In this document: positions 1 to 12,315 of the stretch, one piece after another | Layout: each line of letters begins with the position of its first letter | How positions within the stretch are numbered: position 1 is the stretch's first letter | Assembly (NCBI GenBank): GCA_035541755.1 | Contig: DATKMQ010000167.1 | Coordinates: 1 to 64,000 of the forward strand | DNA from: Syntrophorhabdaceae bacterium | GTDB taxonomy: Bacteria > Desulfobacterota > Syntrophorhabdia > Syntrophorhabdales > Syntrophorhabdaceae | Length of the DNA stretch: 64,000 nt | Direction: 5' to 3' | Position numbers and translations under genes: made by a program | Notes under the pieces: generated by a model | What the model was told of the DNA's origin: nothing | The model's database searches: none | The model's input: only the letters and a program-made list of their open reading frames with translations

Positions 1-238
<238 letters not shown>

Positions 239-259
239 CTATTTTTTGGGGCCTTAGAA

Positions 260-288
260 AATATAATGTCGGAATCCAGAGTTGTCAA
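260..288 (-). promoter_or_regulatory. sigma-70 type promoter for dnaK
   Basis: On the minus strand TTGACA (288-283) is followed by a 17-base spacer and TATATT (265-260). Transcription would begin near 253, giving a leader of about 30 bases before the dnaK ATG at 223. Confidence 0.7.
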
Positions 289-374
289 CGTTTTGGGCGT
301 AAATTTGTAGGTCCCGTTATACATATTAAGAACATAGTACCCACCTATCTCAACTGTCAATGCGATAGCCTCCC

Positions 375-1202
375 TTAAGATAAATCATAATGGGCTTTTA
401 CCCGTACGGCAACGAAGACGGCCAGGAAGAGACCAAAGGCAACGCCGACGATGGCCCCTCCTGCCGGCAAATCCAGCAGAAAGGCGGCAAATATACCGGA
501 TATCACCGCAAGGACGCCGGATAGAGACGAAATGATTATCGTTGTTTTGAATCCTCTTGCCACCTGAAGGGCCGTGGCCGGGGGCAGGATGAGAAGGGCG
601 GAAACGAGCATGATTCCCATGACCCTCATGGCAAGCACCACAGTCAGTGCGATGAGAAGCACAAGGACCTTGTTGATCCGATCTGTCCTGATCCCTGTGG
701 CTTTAGCCGATTCTTCGTCGAAGGTAATTGAAAGGAGCTCGTGGTAATAGAAGAAAACGACGCACAGGAGCGCAAGGGAGAGCGCTATGGAGACGATCAC
801 TTCGGCGGGACTTATAGCCAGTATGTTCCCGAAGAGATAGCTGAAAAGATCCACGTTGAACCCCCCGGCTGCGCTCGCCAGTATAATCCCGCCGGCTATG
901 CCCACGGACGATACAATACCGATCGCTGCATCCCCATAGATACGGGCCTTTTCCATAAGTTTGAGGATGCCCAAAGCGCTCGCCATTACAATGGGGACCG
1001 CCGTATAGAAGGGGTGCGTTCTGAGAAGAAGCCCCACGGCCACGCTTCCGAATGTCACGTGCGCAAGACCGTCGCCGATCAAAGACAAACGCTTGAGGAC
1101 AAGAAAAATCCCCAACGTTGAACAGAGAATGGCAATGAAGCACCCGGCGATGAGCGCCCTCTGAATAAAACCGTGGCTCAAAAGGTCCGTTAAGCCCGTC
1201 AT
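375..1202 (-). CDS. znuB: metal (zinc/manganese) ABC transporter permease, ZnuB-like
   Basis: A 275-residue, very hydrophobic protein with about eight membrane segments, the usual size of ABC-3 family permeases (ZnuB, MntB, TroC). It would form the inner-membrane channel for divalent metal imported by the neighbouring ATPase and binding protein. The order fur-binding protein-ATPase-permease on one strand is the classical layout of such operons. It starts 101 bases after the ATPase stop. Which metal is carried cannot be read from the permease; zinc is favoured by the Fur-family gene with a Zur-like operator at the head of the operon. Confidence 0.9.
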   Translation of the reverse strand: MTGLTDLLSHGFIQRALIAGCFIAILCSTLGIFLVLKRLSLIGDGLAHVTFGSVAVGLLLRTHPFYTAVPIVMASALGILKLMEKARIYGDAAIGIVSSVGIAGGIILASAAGGFNVDLFSYLFGNILAISPAEVIVSIALSLALLCVVFFYYHELLSITFDEESAKATGIRTDRINKVLVLLIALTVVLAMRVMGIMLVSALLILPPATALQVARGFKTTIIISSLSGVLAVISGIFAAFLLDLPAGGAIVGVAFGLFLAVFVAVRVKAHYDLS

Positions 1203-1303
1203 CTAAATGCCTCCAGTTCTTTTATTGCGCCCTCTTTCTCGAACCTGCAATCTCCGCTTGTCTTAGAACCCGTGCTCTTCATCCGGCGTCTAATCCCTGC
1301 TCC

Positions 1304-2059
1304 CTAATCATGCCGGTGGCATATGACGTGCTGCGAATACTCGCCGAAGTAACTCGCCATCTCATGCGACGCGCAGAAAGTATCGAAGGTACCGTAAAAG
1401 ATCACCTGCTTGTCGAGGTAGAGGAGTTCTGTGGCGTGCTTCCCAATGGTCCCGATATCGTGCGTAATCATGATAATGGTTATCTTTTTCTTATCATTGA
1501 GCTCGGTGAGCGTATTAAAGAACGTTTCCCTGGCTTCGGGATCGAGCGCTGTAGTGGGTTCGTCAAGTATGAGAAGCTCGGGTCCGGCAACCATTGCCTT
1601 GGCTATGAGGACCCTCTGCTGCTGACCTCCCGAGAGCTCGCCGATGAGTTTCTCCTGAATGTTTGTGATATCCATGAGAGAAAGTACATCGTTGACGGCC
1701 TCGTCATCCCTCTGGCCTATCCTCTTGGGAAAGCCTTTCTTCGAAAGGAGTCCCAGGGAAACGATTTCTCTCACGGTAGCGGGAAAATGAGGATTGAAAT
1801 CCTGCGCCTTCTGGGGCAAATATCCGACCTTCTCCCAGTTATTGAAGTCCTGAGGAGCTTGTCCGAAAAGCGATATCTTTCCCTTGGTAGGCTTGAGAAA
1901 ACCGAGGACAATCTTTATGAGCGTTGTTTTTCCCGAACCGTTCGGTCCCACCACACCAACGTAGTCGCCCGTGCGTATCTGAAACGAGATGTCCGTCAAT
2001 ATCTCAATGCCATTGTACTGAAAATGAAGATGCTCTGAAGAAACCGGATCTACCGACAC
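1304..2059 (-). CDS. znuC: metal ABC transporter ATP-binding protein, ZnuC-like
   Basis: A 251-residue ABC ATPase. Visible motifs are Walker A GPNGSGKTT, the Q-loop region YLPQKAQDF, the signature LSGGQQQR and Walker [13 protein letters not shown] followed by the switch His in MITHD. It would energise metal uptake with the ZnuB-like permease and ZnuA-like binding protein encoded beside it. The start overlaps the end of the binding-protein gene by ten bases, which indicates translational coupling. The C-terminal tail contains CHRHD, a possible weak metal contact, but this is not diagnostic. Confidence 0.92.
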   Translation of the reverse strand: MSVDPVSSEHLHFQYNGIEILTDISFQIRTGDYVGVVGPNGSGKTTLIKIVLGFLKPTKGKISLFGQAPQDFNNWEKVGYLPQKAQDFNPHFPATVREIVSLGLLSKKGFPKRIGQRDDEAVNDVLSLMDITNIQEKLIGELSGGQQQRVLIAKAMVAGPELLILDEPTTALDPEARETFFNTLTELNDKKKITIIMITHDIGTIGKHATELLYLDKQVIFYGTFDTFCASHEMASYFGEYSQHVICHRHD

Positions 2060-2985
2060 TGAAGCCCCACCTCCAGATTTTTCAGGTTTTCTTTCATGAG
2101 GTCGATGAAGGTCTTTCCGTCGGCGAGCTCTTCTTTGGAGATATTGTGGGCCCCGGAGAGTTTAAGAAGCTTCACCCCCGTCTCTCTTGCGAGAACTTCT
2201 GCCACCCTCGGCGTGATGAGCTCCTCATAATAGATATAGCGGACATTGTCACGCTCAATCATCTTCTTCAGTTCAATCATCTTTTTCGGCGAGGGTTCAG
2301 CATTGGGAGAGCCTGCATAGGCGGAGACATAGTGCAAGTGATAGCGATGCGCCAGGTAGTTAAAGGCAAAGTGGCCGCCATGGACAAACGTGTCCCTTTT
2401 GCAGTTCGAAAGACCATCTTTATACTCTTTATCCATGTCCTCAAGTTGGGCTTTATATGCCCCCGCGTTCTGTGTGTAGAAATCCCCGTTTTCCGGATCA
2501 ATCTGCACAAGTCCCTTGAGAATGTTGTCGACCATCTTCTGTGCATTGGTAAAATCAAGCCAGATGTGAGGATCATAGGCATCCGGACTGTGGCGCTCCC
2601 CAAACTCCTGGCTGTCCTGCATGAGAGTAATACCGCTGCTCGTATCGACGACGAGGAGCTTCTTATTGTCTGCCCCGCGAAGAACACTCTCCACCCAGGG
2701 CTCCATGTATTTGCCTGTGTAAAGGAATAGGTCGGCGTCGGCAATCTTCAGCATGTCGCCCGGTTTCGGTTCGAAGCTGTGCGCTTCAACACCGGGAGGT
2801 AGAAGCAGCGTCACGTTGGCCCTGCCGTCGGCGATATGCCTTGCAAAGTCATAGACTGTAAAGAGCGTGGCCACAACCACCGGGGGTTTCTTACCTTGAA
2901 GGTTCTCGCTCTCACGGCTATGACAGAAACAAAGGAGGAATGCGGCGCACAACAGGCCGATTGTACATGCCCTTTTTGTCTTCAT
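2050..2985 (-). CDS. znuA: metal ABC transporter substrate-binding protein, ZnuA-like (cluster A-I)
   Basis: The start ATG at 2985 overlaps the stop of the fur-family gene as ATGA, which favours this start over one 13 codons upstream. The first 20 residues form a hydrophobic export signal with cysteines near its end, so it may be a lipoprotein, although the lipobox is imperfect. Metal-ligand His residues typical of cluster A-I proteins are visible in EAHSFEP, DPHIWLD and GHFAFNYLAHRY. The His-rich loop characteristic of strong zinc chaperoning ZnuA proteins is short here, so manganese cannot be excluded. It would deliver metal from the periplasm to the permease. Confidence 0.92.
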   Translation of the reverse strand: MKTKRACTIGLLCAAFLLCFCHSRESENLQGKKPPVVVATLFTVYDFARHIADGRANVTLLLPPGVEAHSFEPKPGDMLKIADADLFLYTGKYMEPWVESVLRGADNKKLLVVDTSSGITLMQDSQEFGERHSPDAYDPHIWLDFTNAQKMVDNILKGLVQIDPENGDFYTQNAGAYKAQLEDMDKEYKDGLSNCKRDTFVHGGHFAFNYLAHRYHLHYVSAYAGSPNAEPSPKKMIELKKMIERDNVRYIYYEELITPRVAEVLARETGVKLLKLSGAHNISKEELADGKTFIDLMKENLKNLEVGLQCR

Positions 2986-3437
2986 GAGCCGCTCCTGCGT
3001 TGCAGCGCGGAACCCGAACAGCACTCCCTGCAGTAACCGAAGACCTGGAGAAAGTGTGAAACTACCCTGCCTTTAAGCCTTTGTGTAACCTCCTGCTCAA
3101 TGTCTTCCATACCGCAAAAGGTCAGGTCCTCAACCTTCTTGCAGGCTGTGCAGACAAAGTGATGGTGGTGGTCGGCATTATGGCAGTAATAGTAATAGAG
3201 CTTCCGGTCCGGGTGAACGACCTTTATAATAATGCCCGCATTGGAGAGATATTCAAGATTCCGATATACGGTAGGTAAACCGATATTCTTAAACAGGCCT
3301 TTGAGCCGTTTCCACACGTCTTCAGGACTCAGATAAGTCGGATCATGGGCGAGAACATCAAGTATGGCAAGTCGTTTGGGCGTTGCCTTCAAATGATAGT
3401 TTCTCAATAAGGTGGAAAAATCGGCGTCTCTGTTCAT
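2982..3437 (-). CDS. Fur-family metalloregulator (Zur-like)
   Basis: A 151-residue Fur-family repressor. The N-terminal winged helix includes the recognition region LPTVYRNLEYL. The C-terminal metal-binding part has HNADHHHHFVC and the CxxC pair CTAC, followed by a second CREC motif. The open frame extends upstream to 3482, but the operator palindrome and the predicted -10 element lie between 3437 and 3482, so the ATG at 3437 is preferred. The gene heads the znuACB operon and is coupled to znuA by an ATGA overlap. It most likely senses zinc and represses its own operon; the exact metal (Zn, Mn, Fe) is an inference from context. Confidence 0.85.
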   Translation of the reverse strand: MNRDADFSTLLRNYHLKATPKRLAILDVLAHDPTYLSPEDVWKRLKGLFKNIGLPTVYRNLEYLSNAGIIIKVVHPDRKLYYYYCHNADHHHHFVCTACKKVEDLTFCGMEDIEQEVTQRLKGRVVSHFLQVFGYCRECCSGSALQRRSGS

Positions 3438-3446
3438 TTCACCATC

Positions 3447-3469
3447 TAAATGAAAACAGTTTTCATTTA
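3447..3469 (-). promoter_or_regulatory. Fur/Zur operator: 23-bp perfect palindrome
   Basis: Two 11-base arms, TAAATGAAAAC and GTTTTCATTTA, flank one central base without a mismatch. The site starts three bases downstream of the -10 element at 3472-3477 and ends ten bases before the regulator ATG at 3437, where a bound repressor would block transcription initiation. The TGAAAAC-N-GTTTTCA core resembles described Zur boxes. Confidence 0.8.
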
Positions 3470-3471
3470 TA

Positions 3472-3500
3472 AATATATACATCGGGGTTCATAAGATCAA
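3472..3500 (-). promoter_or_regulatory. sigma-70 promoter of the fur-znuACB operon
   Basis: TTGATC (3500-3495), a 17-base spacer and TATATT (3477-3472) on the minus strand. The predicted start of transcription falls inside the operator palindrome at 3447-3469. Confidence 0.65.
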
Positions 3501-3603
3501 GGGGAAATTGAAAAATAGCGTCAGATACTGTACGGCAAGATCATGTACGTGGCCGACTATTGACTGCTCATTATCTTTAAGACTTCTATGTGGGAAAGAT
3601 TTA

Positions 3604-3622
3604 TTAGGCGCCGAAGCGCTAA
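3604..3622 (-). terminator. hairpin after the rhodanese gene, possible weak terminator
   Basis: On the minus strand TTAGCGC, a TTCG tetraloop and GCGCCTAA form a short GC-rich hairpin with one bulge, 16 bases after the rhodanese stop. There is no strong T run, so termination is uncertain. Confidence 0.35.
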
Positions 3623-3637
3623 GAACATCTATCAAGG

Positions 3638-4030
3638 CTACCGTTCAATTTCGTACCCTCTCCTCACCCACTCGGGATAGCCGCCGTAAAGCACCATCAC
3701 ATTCGAATACCCGATGTTTCTGGCTGCGAACGCAGCCTCCGCACTCGGCATTCAGCCCACGCCTCTGCAATAGAAAACAAGAGGCCTGTCTTTCTCTTTG
3801 GGCAGGAGGGCATCGAGCATACGGAATTTTTCTTGTGAAATGTTGATCGCCCCTGGGATATGGCCGAGTGAATACTCATACTCGGTCCGCGTGTCCACAA
3901 CCACGAGTTTCGTGTCCCGGCTCATCATCTTCTTGAGCTCTTCAGCCTCGATGTCGTTCGCATAGGCTAACCTGCAAGACAGGGCGAATATGAAAAGAAG
4001 AATGAAGAAGAACCCTCTTACAATCCTCAT
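3638..4030 (-). CDS. exported rhodanese-like protein, probable selenoprotein (in-frame TGA read as Sec93)
   Basis: Reading through one TGA at 3754-3752 gives a complete 130-residue single-domain rhodanese. Residues 1-24 are a signal peptide ending near LAYA, so it acts in the periplasm. The domain runs from about 26 to 130, with VVDTRTEYEYSLGHIPGAI before the active-site loop and a normal C-terminal half (VLYGGYPEW, RRGYEIE). The loop reads C88-R-G-V-G-U93-M-P-S; relatives have CxGxxCxxS, so the TGA falls on the second cysteine. A hairpin resembling a bacterial SECIS follows (separate entry). The start overlaps the thrC stop as ATGA. Alternatives are a nonsense mutation or sequencing error, but the downstream 37 codons are intact and family-like. 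Sulfurtransferase or thiol/selenol redox function is inferred; the partner is unknown. Confidence 0.75.
3711..3754 (-). promoter_or_regulatory. bacterial SECIS-like element for Sec insertion
   Basis: Immediately after the TGA (3754-3752), GGCTGC-GTTC-GCAGCC (3737-3722) forms a perfect 6-bp stem with a four-base loop containing GU, 20 bases from the TGA. The well-known E. coli fdhF element has a 6-bp upper stem and GGUC loop 18 bases from its UGA. A lower stem CCGA (3748-3745) with TCGG (3714-3711) can extend it across an internal loop. Confidence 0.6.
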
Positions 4031-5487
4031 GGTTTCCTGTAAATCGCGCGTATCGTTTTTTTCGCCTCTTCGATCTGGGACGCCGAGAGCGCGAATCCTT
4101 CCTCGGTACGCAACGGGCGGGACTCTACACGGTATACCCGTTCCTTCGTGGCGGCCTGATCCTTCATGCCCCGGGGGAGCTTAGGCGTGAGGCCGATGGC
4201 CTTTTCAACATCTTCAGGGAATTTTCCCGGATCGGCCGTTTCATATATGACCGCCGGTTTGTCATGCATGTTCTGTAAGAAGATGTCCAACGCCTTGTAG
4301 CCCACGGCGCCATGAGGATCAAGGATGATCCCGTACGTGTCGTACACATATTTCATGGTTACGTAGTGGAGTGGATTGGTGACGCCGATGGAAACGATGT
4401 CTTTTCGCATGGCAGCCATATCCGGCGCTCGGTCGATGACACCCGGCCTCATAACATTCCCTGTTGCCGTGTCCCGCTCATCGTACATGTGGCCGCCGTA
4501 AAAATCAATGAGGCGCGCAAGGTTACTCGGGTGCGACACAATCATTGCTGAGGACGGCGATTTAACAGAAGGCCGCACGGAGTACGTGCCTGATTCAAGA
4601 AACTCGGGAAACTCCGTGTTCTCGTTGACACCGCACACGATCTTCTCAACGGGAAGTCCCATCTGCCGCGCAACTACCGTACCCATCATGTTGCCGAAAT
4701 TGCCCGACGGCACGCTGGCGATAAACGATTCATCCGCGGCATCAATCTTAGAATATGCGTAAAAAGGGTAGACCGCCTGAGGGAGAAGTCTGCCAATACT
4801 TATGGAATTTGCCGATGTGAATCGCTCTTCATCGTCAAAGATCTCAAGGGCGAGCTCTTTATCTGCGAGGATATTCTTTGCCAGGGCCTGACAGACATCG
4901 AAATCACCATCTATTTCAAATGCGTGGACATTATCGCCAAGGGTTGTCATCTGTCGCCTTTGACCGTCACTGATAGACCCTTTTGGATAGAAGACAATGT
5001 TGTCGATGTTCTCTAGACCGTGGAGGGCATCCGCGACCGCGCCGCCTGTGTCCCCGCTCGTAGCCACGACGACTACGCGCTTCAGGCTCTTTCTGCTGAG
5101 AAAATAATCAAGCGCCCTCCCGAAGAAACGAGCGGCGTAATCTTTGAAGGAATATGTGGGTCCTTTGGTGAGCCACATGATATATGTCCTGCCCGTCACG
5201 TGCTCAATCTGCGTAGGAATCGTCTCGTAACGGTACGCGTCCTCCAACAGGGCCCTCAACTTCTCGGACGGTATTTCCCCTCCGAGAAAGGGGTGAAGGA
5301 CCTCGTAGGCAATCTCTGCGTAGGACATAGGTCGCATCGCGCGAATCCGCTCACTCGGGATGACCGGTATATCGTCCCTCGCCACCATGTAAAGGCCGTA
5401 ATTTGACGCCATCCCTTTGAGCAGGGCCGCCTCGAAGTTGACCTTTTCATCCCGATTGTTCGTGCTGTAAAACCATATTGGGTTCAT
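4027..5487 (-). CDS. thrC: threonine synthase
   Basis: About 486 residues. It converts O-phospho-L-homoserine to L-threonine using pyridoxal phosphate in the cytoplasm. The N-terminus WFYSTNNRDEKVNF and the PLP-lysine segment KGPTYSFKDYAARFF are typical, as are the phosphate-binding SGDTGGAV and the later VPSGNFGN. The open frame allows a start seven codons earlier (5508); the ATG at 5487 is chosen because relatives begin a few residues before YSTNN, but neither start has a clear Shine-Dalgarno. The stop overlaps the start of the rhodanese gene, so the two are co-translated. The link between the two functions is unclear. Confidence 0.93.
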   Translation of the reverse strand: MNPIWFYSTNNRDEKVNFEAALLKGMASNYGLYMVARDDIPVIPSERIRAMRPMSYAEIAYEVLHPFLGGEIPSEKLRALLEDAYRYETIPTQIEHVTGRTYIMWLTKGPTYSFKDYAARFFGRALDYFLSRKSLKRVVVVATSGDTGGAVADALHGLENIDNIVFYPKGSISDGQRRQMTTLGDNVHAFEIDGDFDVCQALAKNILADKELALEIFDDEERFTSANSISIGRLLPQAVYPFYAYSKIDAADESFIASVPSGNFGNMMGTVVARQMGLPVEKIVCGVNENTEFPEFLESGTYSVRPSVKSPSSAMIVSHPSNLARLIDFYGGHMYDERDTATGNVMRPGVIDRAPDMAAMRKDIVSIGVTNPLHYVTMKYVYDTYGIILDPHGAVGYKALDIFLQNMHDKPAVIYETADPGKFPEDVEKAIGLTPKLPRGMKDQAATKERVYRVESRPLRTEEGFALSASQIEEAKKTIRAIYRKP

Positions 5488-5514
5488 TGCAGGATATTTA
5501 GCATACAAGATGTT

Positions 5515-5543
5515 TTGCTTTTTTTCAACATAATGCTTATAAT
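5515..5543 (+). promoter_or_regulatory. sigma-70 promoter for the exported protein at 5551
   Basis: TTGCTT (5515-5520), 17 bases, then a perfect TATAAT (5538-5543). Transcription would start near 5550, only a base or so before the ATG at 5551, suggesting a leaderless or nearly leaderless message. Confidence 0.6.
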
Positions 5544-5550
5544 ATTATGT

Positions 5551-6123
5551 ATGATTAGGCGAAAGTACACTCTTTTTTTGGTATGTGCTATTATCGTCTC
5601 TTCCCTATCGGCATTCGTGGCGGTCTGCCCTCTTTATGCAGCCGCGCCCGCCTTAACTGATCCACAGAGCACGGGCACCACACCCAATAGCGCCCCGGCT
5701 ACCATTAAGCAGGAATTTCAGAGCTATAGCGATTCGAATGACAAGGCGCTCGACAAGGCTGTAACCGCGGAGAAGATTAGCTTTGTGCGATTAAAGCCGA
5801 CATCGGGGAACGCAAACGTCTCGCCCGATCAGAAGGTCTACAATATAGAATTCATGGACGATAAGGCGACCGGAAGCAAGCCCGAAAACGGTGCTGCTGA
5901 TACGCCAAACCTTGCCGTGCACAAAATAGAAAGCCTCGACTCGAGTAATCTTATGAAGAAGGAAACCGCCAAGGAAAACAAAACTGAGGTCTCTCTCGGT
6001 TACAAACTGTCTCCTTACAGTGAAATAGGCCTGGGCAAAGGATTTCTTATCGAGCACAACGAGACCACCTCGTTCCAGACACGTGACGACGGCTGGAGAT
6101 TTAAATTCAAAGTTAATTTCTGA
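5551..6123 (+). CDS. exported protein of unknown function
   Basis: About 190 residues. The N-terminus MIRRKYTLF followed by a long hydrophobic stretch and an Ala-rich end is a signal peptide of about 30 residues. The middle is polar and low in complexity, rich in Asn, Lys, Asp and Ser. The last 45 residues, from TEVSLGYKLS to the end, alternate polar and hydrophobic residues as beta strands do, and the protein ends in Phe, as outer-membrane proteins often do. I do not recognise a family. A start 12 codons upstream at 5515 is possible but would place translation inside the promoter. It diverges from thrC. An envelope or outer-membrane role is only a guess. Confidence 0.6.
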   Translation: MIRRKYTLFLVCAIIVSSLSAFVAVCPLYAAAPALTDPQSTGTTPNSAPATIKQEFQSYSDSNDKALDKAVTAEKISFVRLKPTSGNANVSPDQKVYNIEFMDDKATGSKPENGAADTPNLAVHKIESLDSSNLMKKETAKENKTEVSLGYKLSPYSEIGLGKGFLIEHNETTSFQTRDDGWRFKFKVNF

Positions 6124-6177
6124 TTGCCTCGTATTGCTCGCTTCCGACGGTTAGCCTCTCGCAACCGCATAGGCGCC

Positions 6178-7539
6178 TCATCGCCCTCCGCTGGTTTGAG
6201 TTACGGCCCCAAGCCACCTCTTCTGCCAGTACCTGTGCACCATGAACATTGCAGTCATGAACTGCGAAAGGTTCATAGTCCACCATACCGACGTTGCATC
6301 AAAACCGAGCACAACTACCCACAGGTAACACAGGGGAATCCGGATAAGCCACACGGTAGATGAGACAATGAGCATAATTCCCTTGGTGTCGCCGGCTCCG
6401 CTTAGAGCTCCACCCAGGACCATCCAGAAGGCCATGAAGGGTTCGCTGATCATGCTGATATAGATATACTTTATGCACTGGGCAACAACGACGGGATTCT
6501 TTGAAATGGCGGGGGCTATCTGCCTGGCTCCCATGATAACCCCCAGTGTAAGGCAAGCCACAATAATCACGCCCATGACGGCTGTAATGATACCCGCCCT
6601 GAAGGCATCTTCTCTCTTGTTTTCCCCGATGAGGTTCCCGGCAATAACTGCATTGGCCATATTGAACGCCATAGCCGGAAGAAAAATGGCTGATTCAATC
6701 CTGAGTCCGGCGGCAAAAGCCGCAAGGGTCTCGACGCTATCGCGCGGCAGAGCACTTAAGATGAGATAGAGCGCCATGGAATGGAGCTGCCAGAGAATCT
6801 GGGACAGCGCAAAGGGCCAACCGATCGTAATAATGGCGCGGGTAGCCTCCGCAGAGAAGCGCCTGATACCCGCTAAAAAAGGCATTATGGAGCGCAGATT
6901 GAGTATACTGCCTACAAAGACGCTGATGGCTGTGGACAGGGCTATGCCCTGATAACCGATCTTCGTATGAAAGACGAGAAAAAAATTGAGTCCGATGTTG
7001 ACGGCACAGACCACGGACATTGTTTTGAGCGAGATGCGGACCCGTTTGCAGGCCCTCAAAATTCCATTCGTGTTAATCACGATGTAGTGAAATAGAAGAC
7101 CAGCCGCATATATCTCTCCCAGGGGGATGGCAATGGGCTTGAGCTGCCTCGGAATATTTACAAGATTGATCAAGAAAGGGGTGAGGCCGATGCCCGCGGC
7201 GCCGAAGATTACCCCCGAGACAACCGCTGTAAGAGTTGTAGAATAGACGGCGTCATCGAGGGCGCCTTTATCGCCGGAGGTGAAAAGCCGTGAAATCACG
7301 GAGACGGTTCCGGCTGTGAGGGCGTTGGCAATGATGATGAAGACGAAATACATCTGAATGACAAATCCGTAAGCCGCCTGGATATCTTTTCCGATCCTGC
7401 CTGCAATATAGATATCGGTGAGGCCGATGAGAAACTCGAAGAACATAATGAGGGTCATCGGCCAGCTGTTCGACCAGCTTTCAGAAATAAATCTTCTTAT
7501 ATCTTGCCGCTCGAATATTCTACTGATAGGGCTTAGCAT
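6178..7539 (-). CDS. MATE family efflux transporter
   Basis: A 453-residue integral membrane protein with about twelve hydrophobic segments, the normal size of MATE/NorM exporters that extrude drugs or metabolites in exchange for Na+ or H+. The N-terminal FEFLIGLTDIYIAGRIG and the mid-protein GIALSTAISVFVGS segments are typical of the two MATE half-domains. An in-frame TGA lies nine bases before the ATG at 7539, so the start cannot be further upstream. No Shine-Dalgarno is visible there, and a 12-bp palindrome abuts the start codon. The substrate cannot be predicted and the gene appears to be transcribed alone. Confidence 0.88.
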   Translation of the reverse strand: MLSPISRIFERQDIRRFISESWSNSWPMTLIMFFEFLIGLTDIYIAGRIGKDIQAAYGFVIQMYFVFIIIANALTAGTVSVISRLFTSGDKGALDDAVYSTTLTAVVSGVIFGAAGIGLTPFLINLVNIPRQLKPIAIPLGEIYAAGLLFHYIVINTNGILRACKRVRISLKTMSVVCAVNIGLNFFLVFHTKIGYQGIALSTAISVFVGSILNLRSIMPFLAGIRRFSAEATRAIITIGWPFALSQILWQLHSMALYLILSALPRDSVETLAAFAAGLRIESAIFLPAMAFNMANAVIAGNLIGENKREDAFRAGIITAVMGVIIVACLTLGVIMGARQIAPAISKNPVVVAQCIKYIYISMISEPFMAFWMVLGGALSGAGDTKGIMLIVSSTVWLIRIPLCYLWVVVLGFDATSVWWTMNLSQFMTAMFMVHRYWQKRWLGAVTQTSGGR

Positions 7540-7551
7540 ATGTGATCACAT
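7540..7551. repeat. 12-bp palindrome at the MATE start codon
   Basis: ATGTGATCACAT is perfectly self-complementary and touches the ATG at 7539. It has the TGTGA half-site look of a Crp operator but without the usual six-base spacer, so Crp binding is doubtful. Confidence 0.4.
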
Positions 7552-7736
7552 GTCCGTCTTCACGGCAAATCACACCATTACAATAATCAATAAATAGAAC
7601 GAATGCAAGGGATGCGTCTATACGCGGGCGCGTTCATGCGCGTACAGAGGAGAGCGAAGACGGGCACATGAAGTTGTCTTTGACAAGCCCCTGCACCCAC
7701 GATCCCGCTGTCTGCTTCACACGTCGACTCAAATGA

Positions 7737-7767
7737 AACAGGTAGGAGAAGAGCACCCCTACCTGTT
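7737..7767 (-). terminator. hairpin downstream of the TRAP binding protein gene
   Basis: Perfect 10-bp arms AACAGGTAGG and CCTACCTGTT with an 11-base loop, 27 bases after the stop at 7794. The T run on the minus strand is poor, so this may be a weak or RNA-stabilising terminator. Confidence 0.5.
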
Positions 7768-7793
7768 CGTTATCTTCAGTTCTCGTTATGGCC

Positions 7794-8825
7794 TTACTTG
7801 CTGTATAGCTGAATGAGGCGCTGCGCTTCATTAAGTATCTTTGTGCCGGGGAGGCCTTTGGCGTCTAAGCCCTGGGCTTCCCTCTGTGCCATGTCCCTTA
7901 CAGGCGCGTAGAATTTGGCCATCTCCTCTTTAGAAATCGGTATGAACTCAACGCCGAGTTTCTTTCCCGCATCCATGGCGTGCTGGTTGGTTCTCGCAAC
8001 CTCCGCTTCCGTCTCCTGGCCGTAGTATTCTATGTTATTTTCGAAGACTTTCCTGATGTCCGGGGGGAGGCTGTTGAACTTCTTGAGATTCATCATCCTC
8101 ATGCCGCTATGCGTGCGATAGAAGTTGATCATCGTCGCGTACTTTGCGACCTCGGCGAATCTTAAGGATTCCAGTGTTTCTATGGGCGTGATGAGTCCGT
8201 CGAGGATGCCCTTCTGAAGACCCACGTAGACTTCCGAATTAGACATAGAGACGCCCTCTACCCCCAGTTCCTTGAGGGCGTTGGACACGTCGCCGACCAC
8301 CTTTATCCGCATGCCCCTGAGGTCGGCAATCTTGCGAACCGGTTTCCTGGTAATGAGTTGATTCATGGACCCACCCCAGCAAAGTACTTTCATATCCTTG
8401 TATTCTCTTTCGATCTCCGGGAATTTAACGAGCATCTCCTTGAAAACCTTTTCTCCCACGGCGAGATCGTTGACCCCGTAAAAAAATATGTAACTTGCCT
8501 TGGTGATCTGGAAACCGCTCTTCGACGTCGAAGGATTAATAAGCGCTATGTCAATCGCGCCTTGTTGTAATTCCTCCACAGCGTCCCGGCCGCCGATCAC
8601 CGCTCCGCCCCAGTACGGTTTGAACTTTACCCGTCCGTTCGTCTCCTTTTCAATCTTCGCCATCCATTTCTGATCCACGATGCTGTAAGTGTGCTCAACA
8701 CCGTAAGGCGTGCCATAGGTCAATTCGATTGGCTTGCCCTGCTGTGCGGCCCCAATACCGGGAAGAATAATAGCTATAATACAGGCAGCGATGAAGAGCA
8801 TCAAACCTCTTTTGATTTGTTTCAT
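7794..8825 (-). CDS. TRAP transporter solute-binding protein, DctP family
   Basis: 343 residues. The ATG at 8825 follows GGAGGAAGGG at good spacing, so it is preferred over one five codons upstream. A signal peptide covers about residues 1-27, ending near GIGAAQ. The mature part has the DctP-fold segments KFKPYWGGAVIGGRDAVEEL, LGMRIKV-like DLRGMRIKVVG and SNSEVYVGLQKGILDG. It would bind an organic acid in the periplasm. The small (DctQ) and large (DctM) membrane subunits are not next to it, so it is an orphan whose partners must lie elsewhere. The ligand is unknown. Confidence 0.9.
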   Translation of the reverse strand: MKQIKRGLMLFIAACIIAIILPGIGAAQQGKPIELTYGTPYGVEHTYSIVDQKWMAKIEKETNGRVKFKPYWGGAVIGGRDAVEELQQGAIDIALINPSTSKSGFQITKASYIFFYGVNDLAVGEKVFKEMLVKFPEIEREYKDMKVLCWGGSMNQLITRKPVRKIADLRGMRIKVVGDVSNALKELGVEGVSMSNSEVYVGLQKGILDGLITPIETLESLRFAEVAKYATMINFYRTHSGMRMMNLKKFNSLPPDIRKVFENNIEYYGQETEAEVARTNQHAMDAGKKLGVEFIPISKEEMAKFYAPVRDMAQREAQGLDAKGLPGTKILNEAQRLIQLYSK

Positions 8826-9102
8826 GTTCCCTTCCTCCATATTTTGAATTTCTGATAGCGATCTACCGCTATCCTTTTACGCCCACTAACCCCCTTGCCT
8901 TGTTAATGGAGCAAATTGTGCTCAAACTTAAGATGGTGGTAGTCGAGTGTAGCACGTATCCCGCTTCTCCTTCAAGATTTTTGTTCGCCGGCCGCTTTGC
9001 CAAGCGAACGCGCGTCACTCTTAATAAAGCATAGTGAAAGCGTCTCCCATAGCTTTTGCCAGGAGGTTGCAGAGGTACTCCGAGATTGCGCGGTGGTGAA
9101 AC

Positions 9103-9837
9103 CTACCTGCTGCGTACTGTCTCTCTTTGTCTTTTGACTTCGTACGCAGAAAGCGCGAAACATGTAGCAACATTTAACGAGGGAAAGGAGGGGTTGGTGG
9201 GAATCTTGATAAGGGCATCGCACGTGTCCCTGGTCAGTCTTCTTAAGCCCTCTTCTCCGCCAAGAACGAGACAGACAGGCCCCGTCAGGTCTATTTCCCA
9301 GATGGACGATTCACCGTGCTCATCGAGGCCGTAGCAAAAAAAACCCTGTTTCTTGAGCGTATCGAGATATCGCGCAAGATTGGTAACGCGCGCGATAGCC
9401 ACATGCTCCAGCGCGCCCCGCGCAATCTCAATAACAGTATCGGTAACTGTGCAGGCCCTGTCTTTGGGAATGATCAGCGCCTCTAAATCAAGACAGGCTG
9501 AACTGCGGACGATATTTCCGAGGTTCTGCGGGTCCTGCACGCCATCAAATGCACACAAAAACGGGTTCTTTCGGCCCTTCAGATCATTGAGAAGTTCGTC
9601 GGGATCCTTGTACGAAAATTCGTCTCTTTCCAGACAAATATGGGATTTAAGGCCTTTGAACCTGTTCAAAAACGCATCTCTGGCAAGGACGCGGAATTGG
9701 ATACCACGGGCTTTCGCCTCTATGATGCATTCGTTGAGCACCCTTTCAAACCCCTGTTCAACCCAGAGCTTTTTGACCTGCCCCGGATGCTCTTTCATCA
9801 CTTCAAGGATCGTGTTTTTATTGGTGAGAAGCGGCAT
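9103..9837 (-). CDS. rlmB: 23S rRNA (guanosine-2'-O-)-methyltransferase RlmB/TrmH family
   Basis: 244 residues, the usual length for RlmB-type SPOUT enzymes that methylate ribose 2'-O positions of rRNA or tRNA with S-adenosylmethionine. The N-terminal substrate-binding part includes KKLWVEQGFERVLNECI. The SPOUT knot motifs are visible as DPQNLGNIVRSSACL, LVLGGEEGLRRLT and IPTNPSFPSLNVATCFAL. The start ATG at 9837 lies inside the end of pyrF, a 20-base overlap that suggests co-expression. RlmB is the best guess, but the exact RNA target cannot be decided from sequence alone. Confidence 0.85.
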   Translation of the reverse strand: MPLLTNKNTILEVMKEHPGQVKKLWVEQGFERVLNECIIEAKARGIQFRVLARDAFLNRFKGLKSHICLERDEFSYKDPDELLNDLKGRKNPFLCAFDGVQDPQNLGNIVRSSACLDLEALIIPKDRACTVTDTVIEIARGALEHVAIARVTNLARYLDTLKKQGFFCYGLDEHGESSIWEIDLTGPVCLVLGGEEGLRRLTRDTCDALIKIPTNPSFPSLNVATCFALSAYEVKRQRETVRSR

Positions 9838-10543
9838 CTTTTATATCCTTACAGATCGCTCTCAGGAGATCCTGAGGATTTGCGCTGTCTCTCACCGCTC
9901 TACCGAGGACGATATAGGTGGCCCCTTTCTCGATAGCTTCCTTGGGTGTTATGGTACGTTTTTGGTCATCTTTTTTACCGTCGATCCTAACCCCGGGCGT
10001 CACGATGATAAAATCTTTTCCGCATGTCTCGCGTATCATCTCGATTTCGCCCCCGCCGGCTACAACGCCGTCAAGGCCAGCTTCTTTGACAAGCAGCGTA
10101 AGTCTTTTCGTCAGTTCAATAACGGGCATCTCAAAACCGATCCGCTTGAGTTCCTCACCGTCAAGGCTCGTGAGTACCGTAACGCCGATGATCTTCGGCT
10201 TATGAAGCCCCTGAGTGTGAACCGCCTTATTAAGTGCCGCTCGCGCCTCTTTCATCATTGTGAATCCGCCTGACGCGTGTACGTTGACCAGTTCCACCCC
10301 GAGTTTCGCCGCCTCGATCACCGCCTTGGCCACGGTGTTCGGAATATCGTGGTACTTGAGATCAAGAAACACCCTGGAGCTCTTCATGTTGATGAAATCT
10401 ACGATTTTCGGACCGCAGTGGGTAAAAAGCTGCTTGCCGACTTTGAACATACCCACGTGATCTTTGAATTCCATAACAAGTTTCTGGGCTTCCTCGAAAT
10501 GGTCCACATCGAGGGCGAAGATGATTTTTTCCTTGGGATCCAT
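9818..10543 (-). CDS. pyrF: orotidine 5'-phosphate decarboxylase
   Basis: 241 residues. It catalyses the last step of de novo UMP synthesis, decarboxylating orotidine monophosphate. The catalytic Lys-Asp network is visible in VFLDLKYHDIPNT. The start IIFALDVDH, the central ELVNVHASGG, the later TPGVRID and the phosphate-binding GRAVRDS near the end match the family. The ATG at 10543 is preceded by AAGGAGGACCC. Its 3' end overlaps the rlmB-like gene by 20 bases. About 90 bases upstream a 7-bp GC-rich inverted repeat (10607-10636) could form in the leader, but no attenuator can be claimed. Confidence 0.95.
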   Translation of the reverse strand: MDPKEKIIFALDVDHFEEAQKLVMEFKDHVGMFKVGKQLFTHCGPKIVDFINMKSSRVFLDLKYHDIPNTVAKAVIEAAKLGVELVNVHASGGFTMMKEARAALNKAVHTQGLHKPKIIGVTVLTSLDGEELKRIGFEMPVIELTKRLTLLVKEAGLDGVVAGGGEIEMIRETCGKDFIIVTPGVRIDGKKDDQKRTITPKEAIEKGATYIVLGRAVRDSANPQDLLRAICKDIKDAASHQ

Positions 10544-10884
10544 GGGTCCTCCTTGGTTTGAATACGCCTGCTATGAACAAAGGGTTTTTATAGCCGAATC
10601 GTCTGCCCCGCCCCGCATCGATCCTCAATGGGCGGGTCTGTCCACTCTCCAAACAGGCCGAGCATTGATACGTTATCCTTTAGCCCGTGATCTGTGACGC
10701 CGGCCATTCATCCGGTCCACGTCGTGGAACATCCATGTATTTTTTACTCCTTTTTGTTCAGGATGTCAAAGAACAACCGCAGGTGCGGGACCAGTTGATG
10801 GTTGCCATAAGGCCCCGCCAGTCGTTATAATAAAGATGACATATGGGCGAAGAGCCTTGATCCTAAGAACAGGGAGGCCGGTGT
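10544..10884. other. intergenic region between pyrF and the flavoprotein gene
   Basis: 341 bases with divergent transcription. It contains a 7-bp inverted repeat CCCGCCC/GGGCGGG at 10607-10636 in the pyrF leader and a sigma-70 promoter for the rightward gene at 10802-10831. No RNA gene or further coding frame was recognised. Confidence 0.6.
10802..10831 (+). promoter_or_regulatory. sigma-70 promoter of the flavoprotein gene
   Basis: TTGCCA (10802-10807), 18-base spacer, TATAAT (10826-10831), about 50 bases before the ATG at 10885, which has a GGGAGG Shine-Dalgarno. Confidence 0.6.
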
Positions 10885-12315
10885 ATGTCCTCGAAAGAAC
10901 GTCTCGTTGTGATAGGCGGGGTGGCGGCCGGAATGAGCGCTGCCAGTAGCTTTAAGAGGATGAAGCCACAGGACGAATCGTACGTTCTTGAAAAGGATCA
11001 TTTTATATCCTACGGGGTATGCAGTCTCCCCTATTACATTTCGGACGACGTGAAGGACATAGTGAGCCTGATCTCACTCACTCCCGAGAAGGCAACCCAG
11101 GAGCGGGGCATCACGGTGCTCACACGCCATGAGGCCTTACGGATAGATCCCGCACAAAAACAGGTCGTCGTAACAGATCTTAACGCAAATGAAACAAAAA
11201 CCGTCTCCTATGACAAACTTGTTATTGCCACGGGCGGATTGCCCGTCAAACCGCCGCTTCCAGGCATTGACCTCAAGCATATTTTCAGCGTCAGGACTCT
11301 AAATGACGGCATGGAGATTAAAAGATTTATTGACCGGTGGACGTCTTCCTCGGATTCAGCACCCGAACGTACAGCCGAAAACCGTACGGGCGTAAGGAAA
11401 AATATTATGAAAGCGGTCATCGTGGGCGGCGGTTATATCGGCATGGAAATGTGCGAATCGCTCAAGAAGCGCGGTCTTGATATTACAGTCATTGAAAAGA
11501 TGGACCGAGTGCTCGGAAACATGGACTCAAGCGTCACCGGCATAGTCGAGGATAAGCTCCGCTCGGAAGGGGTGACGCTCCGCAAAGGGGTTTCCGTTGA
11601 AGGCTTTGAAGGAAAGGATGAGGCCGTCACGAGGGTCATCACGGATAAGGGACCTTGCGACGCCGATATCGTGATCCTGGCCATTGGGACACGTCCCAAC
11701 ACAGCCGTGGCACGGGCTGCAGGCGTGATGCTGGGCGCAGGCGGAGCCATAACCGTTGACGAATTTCTCCGTACCAATGTGCCGGATATCCTTGCCGCAG
11801 GCGATTGCGCCGAAGCCACGCACCTCGTAACGGGTAAGAAAGTCTACATCCCGCTCGGCACCACGGCCAATAAGCAGGGCAGGATTGCCGGAGAAAATGC
11901 CGCCGGCGCGCGGCACATCTTTGAGGGCATCGTCGGAACCGCCGTTACCAAGATATTTGACCTGGAGGTGGCCCGGACCGGCCTTTCGCCACTAGAGGCG
12001 GACCATGAAGGATATCATTATTTTGTATCCACCATTCAGGGAACGTCGCGAAGTAGCGCCTATCCCGCGGGAAAGGCGCTCACCGTCACATATGTGGTCG
12101 AAGCAGAGACAGGCAGACTCCTCGGCGCACAGATGGCGGGCGTTGAGGGGGTGGCCCACCGTATCGATACACTTGCTGCCTGCCTCTACAACAGGATGAG
12201 TATAGAGGATGTGGCAAGGCTTGATCTGGGCTATGCCCCGCCCTTTGCCACTGTTTGGGACCCTATCCTTATCGCAGCCAATGTTGCGCTAAAGAAATTG
12301 CAAAAACCCGAATAA
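10885..12315 (+). CDS. FAD-dependent pyridine nucleotide-disulfide oxidoreductase, CoA-disulfide reductase/Nox-like
   Basis: 476 residues. The N-terminal FAD-binding motif VVIGGVAAGMSAA is followed by SYGVCSLPYYIS, which carries the single active-site cysteine of the CoA-disulfide reductase and NADH oxidase group. A second dinucleotide fold starts at VIVGGGYIGMEM, the FAD contact DILAAGDCAEA is present, and the C-terminal dimerisation domain ends with LDLGYAPPFATVWDP. It is some 30 residues longer than the usual 440-450, with an insert near residues 150-175. Likely role: NAD(P)H-dependent reduction of CoA disulfides, polysulfide or oxygen. A cyclic-nucleotide-binding gene follows 57 bases downstream and may be co-transcribed. 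Confidence 0.87.
   Translation: MSSKERLVVIGGVAAGMSAASSFKRMKPQDESYVLEKDHFISYGVCSLPYYISDDVKDIVSLISLTPEKATQERGITVLTRHEALRIDPAQKQVVVTDLNANETKTVSYDKLVIATGGLPVKPPLPGIDLKHIFSVRTLNDGMEIKRFIDRWTSSSDSAPERTAENRTGVRKNIMKAVIVGGGYIGMEMCESLKKRGLDITVIEKMDRVLGNMDSSVTGIVEDKLRSEGVTLRKGVSVEGFEGKDEAVTRVITDKGPCDADIVILAIGTRPNTAVARAAGVMLGAGGAITVDEFLRTNVPDILAAGDCAEATHLVTGKKVYIPLGTTANKQGRIAGENAAGARHIFEGIVGTAVTKIFDLEVARTGLSPLEADHEGYHYFVSTIQGTSRSSAYPAGKALTVTYVVEAETGRLLGAQMAGVEGVAHRIDTLAACLYNRMSIEDVARLDLGYAPPFATVWDPILIAANVALKKLQKPE

Follow-up and report, generated by a model that had tools for sequence, protein, structure and literature searches.

The question raised by this locus is what a TGA triplet is doing within the reading frame of a small gene for an exported rhodanese. 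Is it a stop, an error, a codon for some other amino acid or a codon for selenocysteine (Sec), and, in the last case, what would Sec contribute to the active-site loop of such a protein? The matter is also one of annotation, since under the standard code the protein ends at residue 92 and the read-through form lies below the NCBIfam cut-offs, so that a conserved enzyme of this kind is easily missed or truncated. The gene lies in the window, by which is meant the whole stretch of 64,000 nucleotides that was analysed, and its features are the following.

4030 to 3638, minus strand: gene for the rhodanese, a probable selenoprotein of 130 residues, with ATG at 4030 and TAG at 3640-3638
3974-4030, minus strand: predicted N-terminal export signal, ending at C19
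3767-3769, minus strand: codon 88, the rhodanese active-site Cys (FYC88RGVGU93), invariant in the 27-member alignment A1
3752-3754, minus strand: in-frame TGA, codon 93, very probably read as Sec
3704-3754, minus strand: extended SECIS stem-loop, a fold predicted from the window sequence alone
3722-3737, minus strand: candidate bSECIS apical hairpin GGCUGC GUUC GCAGCC, its loop 20 nt after the UGA and beginning with G

The initial annotation gave no strand; the gene is on the minus strand, where translation confirms the single frame that had been described, with its sole TGA at codon 93 and a continuation of 37 residues to a TAG. With TGA read as U, the protein begins MRIVRG, ends in VFYC88RGVGU93MPSAEAAFAARNIGYSNVMVLYGGYPEWVRRGYEIER, which includes the active-site loop, and an AGGA-like ribosome site is found 5' of the ATG. 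The plus-strand reading of 3638-4030, a rejected candidate, yields no gene. The placing of the TGA at the active-site Cys position can be refined: the triplet falls at the second-Cys position of the loop, the sixth position of the rhodanese loop, where Cys relatives carry that residue, and the catalytic C88 is still there.

That the protein belongs to the rhodanese family is clear from the read-through form, which gives a continuous match to PF00581 over residues 29-123 at 82 bits, against a gathering cut-off of 22. An AlphaFold2 model built on a three-row alignment adopts the rhodanese fold with a pLDDT of about 90 over most of the domain, falling to 81-85 near the active-site loop, and the nearest folds in the PDB as identified by Foldseek are 3tp9 (E 2e-8) and 6mxv (E 4e-8). 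By its PF00581 score and its invariant C88 the window protein is a rhodanese domain. These results bear directly on whether the TGA could be a true stop, with a 92-residue truncated rhodanese as the product. An ordinary ATG-to-TGA frame of 92 residues does exist under the standard code, but the residues that follow the TGA lie within the rhodanese domain, both in the PF00581 match, which runs to residue 123, and in the AlphaFold model, and they are conserved equally with the rest of the protein, the identity to homologs being 51% before the TGA and 52% after. Under such a reading the retention of the hairpin considered below would also lack a reason, and a true stop is for these reasons very unlikely indeed.

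Relatives of the gene were sought in 148 related genomes and in 246 genomes from the phylum of a Thermodesulfovibrionales relative, and a tree was built from 44 exported rhodaneses representing two phyla, the Thermodesulfobacteriota-like lineage of the window and the Nitrospirota side. Among these 44 members codon 93 is TGA in 40 and a Cys codon in 4 (TGC in L024 and TGT in L074-L076), with nothing else found at this position and no loss of frame, which is the pattern that the initial annotation had put forward as a check on its reading. Cys is also present at the second loop position in the multi-domain relatives L042 and L045. Selection appears to act on both sides of the triplet, with pN/pS at 0.44 before the TGA and 0.39 after, and there are no stops 3' of the TGA in the 27 genes compared. 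Could the triplet nevertheless be a sequencing error for TGC or TGT, or a sign of pseudogene decay? The window genome is a draft in 180 contigs and four homologs do carry TGC or TGT, but TGA recurs at this one codon in 40 of the 44 genomes, each of them assembled separately, and this recurrence, together with the purifying selection after the triplet and the absence of further stops, leaves error or decay with almost no credence.

The distribution of the two residues on the tree carries its own information. The Cys members lie inside Sec clades at two separate places, and well-supported branches force two changes; L024, for instance, is the nearest neighbour of the Sec form L030. The pattern is most simply read as one in which Sec was ancestral in this rhodanese group and was lost twice to Cys. 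With 40 of 44 members carrying Sec codons, selenium use would be the rule rather than the exception in this group across the two phyla.

How, then, would the UGA be read as Sec? In bacteria the published model of the bSECIS element asks for no fewer than 4 stem pairs, a loop of 3-9 nt with G in one of its first two positions and a spacing of 16-37 nt (PMC13188914), and the window hairpin, with a stem of six pairs (GGCUGC/GCAGCC) and the loop GUUC, agrees with the model on every point (PMC13188914). The fold of 3700-3757 has a z of -2.35 against 200 shuffles. The family shares a pattern 3' of the TGA in which G-C-w-G-C is followed by a four-base loop and a second G-C-w-G-C, and in the first set, which comprises 27 genes, 25 have GGUC as this loop. 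With background codon use some 27% of sequences would be expected to form the stem, as against the 27 of 27 observed in that set. Five core pairs are kept in all 35 aligned Sec genes, which were chosen to fit one register; left out of this alignment were L077, L081, L084 and L085, from the Nitrospirota side, where the stem is shifted or has 4/5 pairs in register, and L031, which carries an insertion. Within a wider list of Sec genes, five pairs are found in 32 of 36 and four pairs in the other 4 of 36.

That the hairpin is maintained as such is indicated by covariation. The pair formed by bases 21 and 30 is CG in 19 of the 35 Sec genes, UA in 11, UG in 2 and AU, GC and GU in 1 each, and since each of the two bases falls at the third position of its codon (Ala paired with Ala or Val) their match is not demanded by the protein. 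Changes on both sides number 14 cells against 4.2 in shuffles, with none of 500 shuffles as high, although the rows are related by descent and these shuffle counts are hence not probabilities; controls in which the register was slid fall well below the covariation in the true register. The both-side changes are confined to this one of the five hairpin pairs, their absence from the other four being attributable to coding constraint, mostly for Ala-Ala-Val-Ala-Ala. Swaps among several pair types across two phyla would be hard to explain otherwise than by selection for pairing. Covariation was used here because the minimum-energy fold of the 51-nt element discriminates weakly: with a mean z of -1.1 it is not clearly better in many members than that of synonymous controls, and L017 and L041 have an alternative fold that is slightly better than the hairpin. 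A search of window positions 1-12000 with Rfam at the gathering score gave no family match.

The Cys forms differ in what has become of this element, with the hairpin perfect in L024 (genome G031), a recent convert to Cys, and broken in L074-L076, whose conversion is older. These genes would represent two stages of Sec-to-Cys conversion, one with the hairpin intact and one with it decayed, and two losses that can be traced in this way offer a good natural test of the purpose of Sec in the rhodanese loop.

A hairpin of this type is of use only to a cell that makes Sec, and the search for the four sel genes that had been proposed in the initial annotation returned all of them. The window genome, a 3.85 Mb draft in 180 contigs that is about 96% complete, contains selA (583 bits), selB (378 bits), selD (373 bits) and the tRNA-Sec gene selC (76 bits), each above its cut-off. 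The selD gene (L012, G000:C90) has an in-frame TGA of its own in the glycine-rich active-site region (QGGGUASKIGPGDL), followed on its 3' side by a stable hairpin of nine pairs, so that the rhodanese gene is not the sole Sec gene of the genome. In each of the 25 TGA-bearing genomes that were checked, one or more of SelA, SelB and tRNA-Sec is above cut-off; G001 and G005 have tRNA-Sec and SelA with no SelB match, and G006 has SelA alone, with a SelB match below cut-off and no tRNA-Sec found. As the genomes of the relatives are drafts and SelB is widespread, being above cut-off in 128 of the 148 relatives searched, the presence of the machinery serves as a check of consistency and is a weak discriminator.

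The machinery also has to be set against the idea that the UGA is decoded as Cys or as another amino acid, by some other tRNA with a UCA anticodon or through a reassigned code. Cys is, after all, the alternative residue at codon 93 among the homologs. Yet the genome holds the full Sec machinery, including a good tRNA-Sec, its selD has a TGA in its own active-site region, ordinary genes such as thrC terminate in TGA, and a SECIS element is needed for Sec only; decoding as a residue other than Sec is on these grounds highly improbable. The weight of the evidence thus falls on Sec. Codon 93 of the rhodanese is very probably read as selenocysteine through the SelABCD system of the host under the direction of the hairpin, making this a genuine selenoprotein, and what had been called a probable selenoprotein is upheld by the sel genes, the alternation of TGA with Cys codons and the covarying bSECIS-like hairpin.

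Where the protein resides and what surrounds its gene might be expected to say something of its role. Export, which the initial annotation had already assumed, is supported by a hydrophobic N-terminus and by C19 at its end, which no less than 90% of A1 shares. The hydrophobic stretch ends ALSC19, in which the residue at -3 is not the usual Leu, and in the lineage of the window the rhodanese is a probable lipoprotein and thus probably anchored in the membrane, the signals of the relatives in the other phylum ending mostly in AQ-type sites. The neighbouring genes in the window are as follows.

4027-5508, minus strand: threonine synthase gene thrC, directly upstream, with a 4-base overlap (ATGA) with the rhodanese gene
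2982-3482, minus strand: Fur-family regulator, the downstream neighbour
375-3024, minus strand: znuA-like binding protein, ABC ATPase and permease of a zinc-type transporter, 3' of the Fur gene

The thrC gene is directly upstream in all 23 members of family f1 examined, its frame touching or overlapping that of the rhodanese in the window and in a relative of the same genus, and fur and/or znuA lie downstream in 19 of the 23. It may be observed in passing that the region 375-3482 (minus strand) thereby places a zinc-type uptake cluster beside a selenoprotein gene. On the Nitrospirota side the neighbours are different, consisting mainly of genes common to related genomes and of housekeeping genes; in two genomes the rhodanese has a TlpA-like redox gene close by. 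The thrC, fur and zinc transporter genes give no pointer to sulfur chemistry and are little informative on function.

What might a Cys-Sec pair achieve within such a loop? The Cys at the start of the rhodanese loop, here Cys88, is the ordinary rhodanese nucleophile. Position 93 is Cys or Sec in 44 of the aligned rhodanese domains, and 43 of these carry one or the other at position 88 too, in a set that is biased towards relatives of the query. The TsoB proteins, which have Sec at both positions and in which a rhodanese is joined to DsbD and to a thioredoxin-like domain, suggest by analogy that loops of this sort may be fed with electrons from the cytoplasm. From this pairing and these fusions we infer that Cys88 would take the sulfane sulfur and Sec93 resolve it. 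In such a mechanism Cys88 would acquire sulfane sulfur from a persulfide, a polysulfide or thiosulfate, after which Sec93, five residues further on in the loop, would attack the Cys88 persulfide with release of sulfide. The Cys-Sec selenenyl-sulfide that is left would then be re-reduced by a periplasmic thiol relay of the CcdA/DsbD type; one DsbD/CcdA-type protein is found elsewhere in the window genome. The mechanism as a whole, in which the protein would be engaged in the reductive handling of sulfane sulfur in the cell envelope rather than acting as a classical thiosulfate:cyanide transferase, is one that we credit and doubt in equal measure.

A broader proposal, to be taken as tentative, is that the window protein stands for an uncatalogued family of Sec-ancestral envelope rhodaneses in two phyla that could act as Cys-Sec persulfide or polysulfide reductases, the fold now serving a reductase instead of a transferase. 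To be entertained with a similar reserve is the suggestion that the Sec rhodanese serves in the handling of selenium, such as the periplasmic transfer of selenite or selenide, or in thiol-disulfide redox or sensing, and not in the reduction of sulfane sulfur. The Cys-Sec pair does resemble the redox motifs of other selenoproteins, and rhodanese-like ExtH proteins, which are tied to the reduction of selenite and tellurite, give a weak match (NF040901), but at 14 bits against a cut-off of 200 that match is far below the threshold.

Rhodanese selenoproteins as such have been recorded in surveys, as the initial annotation said of selenoproteomes and as the literature bears out (PMC1088965, PMC2398784, PMC9312934, PMC13188914). 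The recorded forms have UxxS (form 1), UxxG (forms 2 and 4), CxU (form 3) and UxxxxU (form 5, TsoB) in surveys including PMC13188914, an example of form 1 being WP_010941598.1, which the table of PMC13188914 credits to Zhang and Gladyshev 2005. Form 1 shares with the U93-M-P-S of the window protein a UxxS within a PF00581 domain, a likeness of motif. The rhodanese fold of 3tp9 and 6mxv is likewise shared, although Sec is absent from both and the sequence alignment places no Cys at the U93 position in 6mxv.

Sec at the U93 loop position is found, too, in the multi-domain C-x-G-x-x-U-x-x-S proteins L044, L047 and L049, which have about 450-500 residues rather than 130. Proteins of this size with several rhodanese domains occur at nine loci (L044, L046, L047, L048, L049, L063, L087, L088 and L089), where the first domain carries C-x-G-x-x-U-x-x-S/T with a TGA, and they are frequent in both phyla. 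A different arrangement is seen in L061, with a TGA at the catalytic Cys position (VYUASG) and neither Cys nor Sec at the second.

None of the NCBIfam models is reached at its cut-off by the window protein, the nearest being TsoB and LYCAU. In TsoB (NF045694) the second Sec of the FYUAGLTUVRS loop corresponds to the U93 position, and all 27 A1 members match the profile; the window protein scores 75 bits against a curated cut-off of 805, and whereas in TsoB the catalytic residue is Sec as well and the rhodanese is accompanied by DsbD and a thioredoxin-like part, the window protein is a lone domain with one Sec. Fusions of the TsoB type, which join rhodanese to DsbD and bear two TGA codons (FYUAGLTUVRS), were also seen at L050, L051, L064 and L065 in the phylum of the window. 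The form 3 LYCAU family (NF041203) comprises small rhodaneses with Cys and Sec in one loop, as in the window protein, which scores 63 bits against its cut-off of 115, but in LYCAU the Sec is two residues past the Cys (CxU) and in the window protein five (C-x4-U). Small Cys-x-Sec rhodaneses (with YCSU, YCTU or YCAU, for instance) were encountered at L053, L054, L055, L056, L057, L058 and L060, with Asp or Glu at the U93 position. Set beside these systems, and lying outside NCBIfam coverage at cut-off, the window protein and its relatives form, as judged from their sequences, a stand-alone, exported and Sec-ancestral subfamily of a known kind of Sec rhodanese.
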